A stretch of 32,729 bases of DNA from Candidatus Pacearchaeota archaeon. Its GTDB lineage: Archaea > Nanobdellota > Nanobdellia > Pacearchaeales > GW2011-AR1. The translations under genes and the position numbers were made by a program. This document shows positions 21,279-28,431 of this stretch, in pieces (the stretch's first letter is position 1; each line of letters begins with the position of its first letter). The stretch lies in contig VGKO01000006.1 in NCBI GenBank assembly GCA_016867035.1, positions 1-32,729 of the forward strand, given 5' to 3'. The notes beneath the pieces were generated by a model that worked only from the letters and a program-made list of their open reading frames with translations, ran no database searches and was not told the origin of the DNA.

Positions 21279-21434
21279 GAGCCCATAGCTCAGCCCGGTT
21301 AGAGCACCGCTCTTATAAGTGTAGACTTCGCTAGAAGTTTATTTTCAAGCATCCGGTTGCGGGAATTGCAAAAACCCGCTGGCGGTTGTTGCTAAGAAAG
21401 GCGGGGGTCCCAAGTTCAAATCTTGGTGGGCTCA
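21279..21434 (+). tRNA. tRNA-Ile (anticodon UAU) with intron 21318-21398
   Basis: Exons: 21279-21317 and 21399-21434; acceptor GAGCCCA/TGGGCTC, anticodon stem CCGCT/GGCGG, spliced loop CTTATAA, T-arm CCAAG-TTCAAAT-CTTGG; bulge-helix-bulge with CTTA/TAAG central helix and 3-nt bulges TAA and AAA. Confidence 0.9.
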
Positions 21435-26687: not shown

Positions 26688-27140
26688 ATGAAAATAAAAA
26701 AATATTTGCGAAATACTGGAATTTTATTGGGTGCAGTTTTGGGCTTGCATTTCTTAAATTATGCCTGGATGGTTGGAGCTCAAAATATTTGTTCACGATT
26801 CTCTCAAAGAATTGAAACAAGAGAACAGGCTCAAGAAGTTTTACAAAGAGAGTCCCTTAGACTTGGAATTCCTAGCGAAAAACAAATACATTTAGTTTTG
26901 GATAAAAGAGAAGGAAGTTTTTCAGGGGCTTCTAGGGTTTGGAAGAATATTTATAGAATTGATTTAACCCCTTCTTGTTTTAATGAGTCTGCTTTGGTTC
27001 ATGAGCTTTCTCATATTGCTAAGGGGGATGTGGATTCTTGGGCTGTTTCTAAAAATAAACATTTAAGAAATTTTAAGTATTTCTTTATTCAGGAACCGAG
27101 AGCAACTCTTTATCAAATTAAGAGGGCAATTTCCCAATAA
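26688..27140 (+). CDS. Membrane-anchored putative zinc protease (HELSH)
   Basis: 150 aa; N-terminal hydrophobic anchor ILLGAVLGLHFLNYAWMVGA; SALVHELSHIAKGDVDSW. Confidence 0.7.
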   Translation: MKIKKYLRNTGILLGAVLGLHFLNYAWMVGAQNICSRFSQRIETREQAQEVLQRESLRLGIPSEKQIHLVLDKREGSFSGASRVWKNIYRIDLTPSCFNESALVHELSHIAKGDVDSWAVSKNKHLRNFKYFFIQEPRATLYQIKRAISQ

Positions 27141-27202
27141 TTTTTATTTAATCTTTTATAAAAAGCTTTATAAACTCACTTTTCACAATAGTATTAGCAT
27201 TC

Positions 27203-27274
27203 GCAAGAGCACTTTGTCTTTAAAAACAAGATTGCAAAGTTCTCTCGCTCACCAATGACCTGTTTGCAGGGAGG
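27203..27274 (+). promoter_or_regulatory. Structured L7Ae mRNA leader: long hairpin followed by consensus kink-turn
   Basis: Hairpin GCaAGAGcACTTTG(27203-27216)/CAAAGTtCTCTcGC(27235-27248); k-turn CC(27252-53)-AAT-GA-CCTG-TTTG-CAGG-GA-GG(27273-74); TATA boxes cttttataaaaag and ctttataaac at ~27153-27175. Confidence 0.65.
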
Positions 27275-27347
27275 CAAGGCTTTCTGTGAACTTTAAATTG
27301 GTAAAAAATAAATAAAACGACTGAAAAATTAAATAAATACAAATAAA

Positions 27348-27662
27348 ATGGTTTCGGTATACGAAATAATTGAAATAGCTCGAAAGACTGGAAAAATAGA
27401 AAAGGGCGCAAATGAAACTACAAAAGCAGTTGAGCTTGGAACTGCCAAATTAGTTGCATATGGTGCAGATGTAGATCCGAAAGAAATTGTTCAACATTTA
27501 CCTATTATTGCAAAAGAGAAAGGTATTACTTGTGTTGAAGCAGACAGCAAAAAGAAATTAGGAATTGCTGTTGGAATTGGAGTAGGATGTTCGGCTGTAG
27601 CTATTGTTGATGCTGGTGAAGCTGAAAAAGATTTAGCTTCATTTAAGAAAAGCGCAAAATAA
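27348..27662 (+). CDS. rpl7ae: Ribosomal protein L7Ae
   Basis: 104 aa; KIEKGANETTKAVELGTAKLVAYGADVDPKEIVQHLPIIAKEKGITCVEADSKKKLGIAVGIGVGCSAVAIVD. Confidence 0.95.
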   Translation: MVSVYEIIEIARKTGKIEKGANETTKAVELGTAKLVAYGADVDPKEIVQHLPIIAKEKGITCVEADSKKKLGIAVGIGVGCSAVAIVDAGEAEKDLASFKKSAK

Positions 27663-27697: not shown

Positions 27698-27982
27698 ATG
27701 GCAAAACCACAACAACAGTCTCAAGAAAGCAAGAAAATGTCTTTAGTAGCTGAAGGCAACGAAGCTTTTCCTGCTATAGTTGAAGAAATGATTGGGAGAA
27801 CAGGTAAATTTGGAGAAGTTACTCAAGTTAAATGCAGAATTCTACAAGGTCCAGATAGAGGAAAAACAATGAGAAGAAATGTAAAAGGCCCAATAAGAAT
27901 AAAAGATGTTTTAATGTTAAGAGAAACTCAAATCGAAGCAAGAAGATTAAAAACTAAAATAGGAAGAGGAGGATTTGCTTAA
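27698..27982 (+). CDS. rps28e: 30S ribosomal protein S28e
   Basis: 94 aa; AIVEEMIGRTGKFGEVTQVKCRILQGPDRGKTMRRNVKGPIRIKDVLMLRETQIEARRL. Confidence 0.94.
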   Translation: MAKPQQQSQESKKMSLVAEGNEAFPAIVEEMIGRTGKFGEVTQVKCRILQGPDRGKTMRRNVKGPIRIKDVLMLRETQIEARRLKTKIGRGGFA

Positions 27983-27983
27983 C

Positions 27984-28226
27984 ATGAATCTTAGTAGTTT
28001 TGTATTAGCTTCTATTGCAGAGGAATTAAGAAAAGGAAGAGATGTGGTTCTTTTAGACGTACCTCAAGAGGGTGTTGATAGAATAGGGGATATTTATTCT
28101 AAAAATAGAGTAGTTCCTGCTGCTGAAATTTCTATTACCCCTGATGGACAAGATATAACTGCAAAAAAATATTCAGTAAGAATTTATGCTAGAGAAGCAA
28201 GACCAGAAGGAGGTCATTTAGCTTAA
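27984..28226 (+). CDS. 80-aa uncharacterised protein in the S28e-L24e operon
   Basis: MNLSSFVLASIAEELRKGRDVVLLDVPQEGVDRIGDIYSKNRVVPAAEISITPDGQDITAKKYSVRIYAREARPEGGHLA; SD gaggagg inside the S28e 3' end; starts 1 nt after the S28e stop. Confidence 0.8.
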   Translation: MNLSSFVLASIAEELRKGRDVVLLDVPQEGVDRIGDIYSKNRVVPAAEISITPDGQDITAKKYSVRIYAREARPEGGHLA

Positions 28227-28227
28227 C

Positions 28228-28431
28228 ATGCCAAGATGTTCATTTTGCAAGAAAAACTATGAATTCCCAAGAGGATTAACTCTAGTTTTAAATGATGGAA
28301 ACATAATGTATTTTTGCTCTTCTAAATGCAGAAAGAATCAACTTAAAATGAGAAGAGATAATAAGAAAGTTAATTGGATAAGAAAAGCAGACACTCAAGT
28401 TTCTGAAGAAGTAAAAGAAGAAAGCAAGTAA
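28228..28431 (+). CDS. rpl24e: 50S ribosomal protein L24e
   Basis: 67 aa; RCSFCKKNYEFPRGLTLVLNDGNIMYFCSSKCRKNQLKMRRDNKKVNWIRK. Confidence 0.94.
   Translation: MPRCSFCKKNYEFPRGLTLVLNDGNIMYFCSSKCRKNQLKMRRDNKKVNWIRKADTQVSEEVKEESK

Follow-up and report, generated by a model that had tools for sequence, protein, structure and literature searches.

The l7ae gene at positions 27348-27662 of the forward (+) strand of the window, by which we mean the whole 32,729-nt stretch of Candidatus Pacearchaeota DNA analysed here, raises the question of whether its product, the presumed ligand, controls its own synthesis through the leader upstream. In other archaea, L7Ae binds kink-turns (k-turns) in leaders and represses expression (Daume et al. 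2017, PMC5539422), and self-regulation of this kind, which the sequence-only reading of the locus had named as a proposal made for other archaea, is indeed already published (PMC5539422; PMC6298567). The gene had been correctly recognised as encoding L7Ae (eL8): the protein matched Pfam PF01248 (E 1.4e-21), its top NCBIfam model was eL8/L7Ae (3.8e-32, yet under that model's curated cut-off), L7Ae chains in the PDB were matched down to 6e-26, and public records hold close homologues at loci of Candidatus Pacearchaeota and other Nanoarchaeota. Ribosomal proteins S28e (27698-27982, +) and L24e (28228-28431, +), identified by Pfam and NCBIfam matches, are presumed operon members, and their order is the same in the sister L002, the sole other genome of the genus. 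The intervening orf80 (27984-28226), which had been counted within the same L7Ae-S28e-orf80-L24e unit, is missing from the L002 operon and is thus not a conserved member; it had no Pfam or NCBIfam match and was found in none of the 19 relatives searched.

Direct reading of the leader revealed a k-turn at 27252-27274 (+) whose letters agree exactly with the layout claimed for it: a C-stem of CC (27252-53) and GG (27273-74), the bulge AAU (27254-56), tandem GA (27257-58) and GA (27271-72), an NC-stem of CCUG (27259-62) and CAGG (27267-70), and the loop UUUG (27263-66). With the C-stem, 3-nt bulge, tandem G.A/A.G pairs and NC-stem in register, this is the layout of a standard (simple) k-turn, which may adopt the kinked form alone or with L7Ae. 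The weak point already recognised, a C-stem of 2 bp, is genuine, the next opposed bases outside it being A and C. The pattern CCAATGA-N3..30-GGAGG had a single match in the 751 kb genome, which is the l7ae leader, and its reversed control had none there. The TATA element placed at about 27166-27175 corresponds to a TATA-like box, TTTATAAA, at 27167-27174 (+), which with the usual ~26-nt spacing predicts a transcript start at about 27196-27198, so that the k-turn would lie within the transcript and the leader would be ~150 nt long (start near 27197, ATG at 27348). An A-rich stretch leads to the start codon (27303-27347, +); no Shine-Dalgarno (SD)-like sequence was found near the ATG, the last 20 nt of the leader consisting of A, T and C only, and the GGAGG of the k-turn ends 73 nt 5' of the ATG. 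Because the window ATG lacks a nearby SD, the published mechanism of SD occlusion is not directly transferable to it.

Analysis of 110 l7ae upstream regions from the same family, Candidatus Pacearchaeota, revealed that the k-turn is conserved. A strict k-turn scan (score of at least 14) retrieved the motif from 39% of these leaders compared to 3.4% of dinucleotide shuffles, and once a mismatch beside the GA pairs was allowed and 15 anchors for variant forms were placed by hand, a k-turn was present in about 100 of the 110; four wrong automatic anchors were excluded from later tests. By eye, the motif was seemingly missing from only two untruncated leaders (L044 and L082). Rather than being lost in relatives, the [A/G/U]AU-GA ... 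GA core is near-invariant across the family (the bulge is GAU, AAU and UAU in 29, 17 and 3 of 49 genus representatives), and the covariation by which the sequence-only reading had proposed to check the element is present in both stems: among the same 49 representatives, NC pair 4 was paired in 86% (52% permuted), NC pair 5 in 72% (38% permuted) and C-stem pair -3 in 80% (55% permuted). The -1b:-1n pair was C:G in 88 of 91 leaders. The distance from the TATA centre to the C-stem has a median of 26 nt, mostly 24-28, which places the k-turn near the predicted +1 in most of the family; the window k-turn is displaced from this position because a hairpin at 27203-27248 precedes it. Given the predicted transcript start, the leader therefore carries a k-turn in the l7ae 5' UTR that is conserved in relatives, and its conservation, covariation and position, together with the match to the mechanism published elsewhere, support its candidacy as an autoregulatory element. 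We conclude that the window k-turn is very probably bound by the encoded L7Ae and thereby controls L7Ae production.

The family leaders were of two types. In the short type (20 analysed leaders), 2-8 nt lie between the end of the k-turn and the ATG, and the SD is the GGAGG of the k-turn, which corresponds to the published mechanism; other families of the same order mostly show this arrangement. In the long type (about 80 leaders, including the window), 14-102 nt separate the k-turn from the ATG. An SD beside or inside the k-turn is thus found in the 20 short-leader relatives and is not found in the window. Six leaders (L019, L031, L056, L068, L090 and L102) contain mini k-turns whose NC-stem has shrunk to three nucleotides between the GA dinucleotides, for example CC-AAU-GA-UAG-GA-GG. 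Ten variant leaders (L015, L016, L028, L054, L058, L089, L094, L103, L106 and L108) contain a GAAC...GUUC hairpin followed by A(G/A)AUGAGG or AUGAAGA, outside the simple k-turn register.

The minimum free energy (MFE) structure of the window leader was an extended anti-k-turn hairpin rather than the k-turn (z -3.68). In this alternative fold, GUUUGCAGGGAG (27262-27273, +), comprising the 3' strand of the NC-stem, the Kt-n GA and the first C-stem G, is paired with CUUUCUGUGAAC at 27280-27291 (duplex E -19.9, z -4.15), and, in both the MFE and duplex predictions, ACCAAU (27251-27256, +), comprising the 5' strand of the C-stem and the bulge, is paired with AUUGGU at 27297-27302. We refer to 27280-27302 (+), which includes a conserved UUCU, as the anti-k-turn arm. 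The anti-k-turn fold lay ~12 kcal/mol below a fold in which the NC-stem was enforced, a comparison that ignores the GA pairs, bound protein, magnesium and kinetics. The sister L002 retains both the k-turn and the arm (z -4.19).

Pairing of the arm with the k-turn was predicted for most of the family. Compared to dinucleotide-shuffled arms, the duplex of each leader with its own k-turn had a mean z of -2.35 across 82 leaders, with 51 below -2, and among 40 genus representatives the arm gave a z of -2.21 +/- 0.21, whereas reversing the arm yielded -0.32 and taking sequence upstream of the k-turn in its place +0.23. Permutation and shuffle tests were used rather than pair counts, for which a MAFFT alignment of the arms did not capture enough structure. 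Arms also fitted their own k-turn better than did arms of other genera (z -9.7, with none of 20000 permutations as good; z -4.4 for the part between the two GAs only). The reversed-arm control of this permutation gave a z of -3.5, indicating that base composition accounts for part of the cross-genus statistic; of the two tests, shuffling within each leader is the cleaner. At least one whole k-turn GA dinucleotide was paired in 76 of 79 duplexes, and all four bases in 37 of 79; since the duplex uses up the GA dinucleotides, the k-turn and the duplex are predicted to be mutually exclusive. By sequence and thermodynamics, the leaders have a conserved alternative pairing that excludes the ligand-binding fold, and conservation of this two-state, mutually exclusive pairing in the family is well supported as a prediction.

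Within the 45 nt that follow the k-turn, 92.5% of genus representatives had a UUCU, compared to 46% of shuffled sequences; for leaders of other orders the figures were 94% and 48%, respectively. The window has UUUCU in the region of 27285; among the leaders UUCU sits in varied pairing contexts, and no one common pairing that would account for it was found among them. The 20 short-type leaders have a k-turn at the ATG that retains the same C:G pair and no arm, which shows that the arm is not needed in every member. That the arm offsets stronger k-turn hairpins was rejected as an explanation, as the NC hairpin energies of the short and long types are alike (-1.3 and -1.0 kcal/mol, respectively).

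The hairpin at 27203-27248 (+), which the MFE fold places between the predicted start and the k-turn, is a lineage-specific add-on. The sequence-only reading had coupled the k-turn to this preceding hairpin, a proposal that found no support, as the hairpin is missing in L002 and the downstream competitor strand is conserved instead; we rejected it as the switch partner because of this absence and because no more than five leaders, the window's among them, carry it. The other four are L005, L009 (with two tandem copies), L024 and L029. In all five it is an imperfect GCAARAG...CUUUUGC with one pyrimidine mismatch just 5' of the k-turn, and its pairs look compensatory (AUUUUG/CAAAAU and ACUUUG/CAAAGU). 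Derivation from a genome repeat was also rejected, as its own genome gave only weak partial matches and the hairpin is single copy.

The conserved competitor strand suggests, from comparative sequence, a two-state RNA switch, and we favor as fairly likely a reading in which the l7ae leader is a co-transcriptional, L7Ae-sensing switch between a bound k-turn and a free anti-k-turn hairpin. The k-turn would be transcribed ahead of the arm, so that plentiful free L7Ae would bind the nascent k-turn and lock it, lowering l7ae expression and perhaps that of the operon. With little L7Ae available, the next strand to be transcribed would pair with the k-turn strand, use its GA dinucleotides and block the k-turn; the A-rich start region would then follow and expression would go ahead. 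The k-turn would thus probably be the OFF state and the anti-k-turn hairpin the ON state. We infer L7Ae binding, the order of events, the OFF-when-bound polarity and the readout at the level of translation or early transcription. We counted against this reading that R41 of Archaeoglobus fulgidus L7Ae corresponds to Leu30 in the window protein. C:G at -1b:-1n favors unaided k-turn folding (PMC6298567), which makes the competitor strand a reasonable source of a protein-free state, one that the published leader RNAs would owe to their instability.

Of the outputs that such a switch could have, a translational one through masking of the ribosome site, on the model of the other orders in the class, is possible although doubtful. 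In those orders, a longer internal loop (GAUGAUUGAUGA...GAAUGAGG) is followed by a hairpin with the k-turn GAGG as its 5' arm, with UUCU in or near the loop and then the SD at the ATG, and the CCUC-like 3' arm could mask the SD. At the class level, predicted pairing of GAGG with the following sequence is supported by a family-matched z of -6.7, 25 of 27 leaders have two or more of the four Kt-n bases paired, and the 3' arm of L251 is able to pair with GGAGAUCAC or with the SD region GGAGGACAC. However, pairing of the arm to the SD was weakly above permuted across families (z -1.7), which makes SD masking by the freed arm in these orders suggestive only, the per-leader GAGG-arm z averages -1.4, and the window ATG has no SD to mask. 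For the long-type Pacearchaeota leaders, start-codon masking by the freed arm found no support: blocking the k-turn strand barely shifted predicted start-codon accessibility (-0.04 compared to -0.02 with a shuffled arm), and no specific pairing of the freed arm with the start region was found (z +0.5).

This small shift is consistent with an output other than start masking, such as early termination, in which L7Ae binding would free a U-rich arm that acts as a promoter-near termination signal and would control the whole operon. The mean U content of the arm is 49%, compared to 27% in the sequence that follows it, and S28e and L24e lie downstream. Nevertheless, the U-richness of the arm follows from its complementarity to a purine-rich strand and the window arm lacks an unbroken U-run, and we regard early termination as rather unlikely.

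Less probable still is that the published mechanism operates in its plain form, with L7Ae repressing through the bound leader k-turn and the downstream complementarity a by-product, for example a stabilising 5' hairpin, rather than a regulatory competitor. Repression through leader k-turns is established elsewhere (PMC5539422), and an arm-less k-turn beside the ATG is found in the 20 short-type leaders and in most other families of the order, but the arm tracks the k-turn sequence from genus to genus and, in nearly all duplexes, engages the GA dinucleotides, and at the GGAGG-ATG distance of the window SD occlusion is inapplicable. That the leader is an independent small RNA upstream of l7ae, such as a box C/D or H/ACA guide, is highly improbable despite its two stable hairpins and k-turn, which guide RNAs also have, because Rfam gave no meaningful match for it even at E 10, direct reading found no RUGAUGA/CUGA (C/D box) pair around the window k-turn, and the k-turn accompanies l7ae in every case and, in relatives, frequently overlaps the SD of that gene.

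Extending the switch reading of the l7ae leader to the Nanoarchaeota, we propose, with the chances for and against about evenly balanced, a distinct class of protein-sensing switch in which a promoter-proximal L7Ae k-turn competes during transcription with a dedicated anti-k-turn strand and the outputs are lineage specific, possibly SD masking in some orders and another output, perhaps early termination, in Pacearchaeota.

Comparison with published systems places the k-turn itself among known kinds. The leaders described by Daume et al. (Sulfolobus acidocaldarius and others; PMC5539422) share with those analysed here an l7ae leader k-turn, an [N]AU bulge, tandem GA pairs, a C-stem that is very short (one G-C pair in those leaders) and a TATA-defined leader. 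In those leaders, L7Ae binding masks an SD that flanks the k-turn, whereas the Pacearchaeota long type lacks an SD near the ATG and has, in most cases, the k-turn near +1 and a conserved downstream competitor strand. Apart from Thermoproteales and Nanoarchaeum equitans, every archaeon examined was reported to have an SD about 7-10 bp upstream (PMC5539422). The A. fulgidus l7ae leader also has a standard k-turn, which functions as an OFF switch whose RNA conformation changes upon L7Ae binding (Huang, Ashraf and Lilley 2019, PMC6298567). Without protein that RNA is unstructured and has C:A at -1b:-1n, whereas the Pacearchaeota leaders have C:G, a pair absent from all six leader k-turns of that analysis, and a defined alternative hairpin is predicted for them; the paper does not refer to mutually exclusive folding (PMC6298567). 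As in riboswitches with aptamer and anti-aptamer folds, a ligand that binds the structure transcribed first would select between two exclusive folds, but the presumed ligand here is a protein, the gene's own product, and the system is archaeal. No description of a conserved anti-k-turn strand was found in the open-licence literature and, as far as that literature tells, the strand is undescribed.

Two further features of the window lie upstream of this locus. Rfam identified a tRNA at 21279-21434 that ARAGORN missed; its anticodon loop is interrupted after CUUAUA by an insertion of ~82 nt, and it is probably an intron-containing tRNA. The small protein encoded at 26688-27140 carries a hydrophobic N-terminal segment and a HELSH motif and lacks a Pfam or NCBIfam match; it is possibly a membrane-anchored metalloprotease.

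In sum, these results would extend L7Ae self-regulation to uncultured archaea with reduced genomes. The conserved competitor strand gives the k-turn a defined alternative, a feature missing from the published cases, and the switch reading suggests a route by which a k-turn that should fold unaided could still switch. The l7ae leader would be among the few archaeal leaders in which two exclusive folds are backed by comparative sequence alone.
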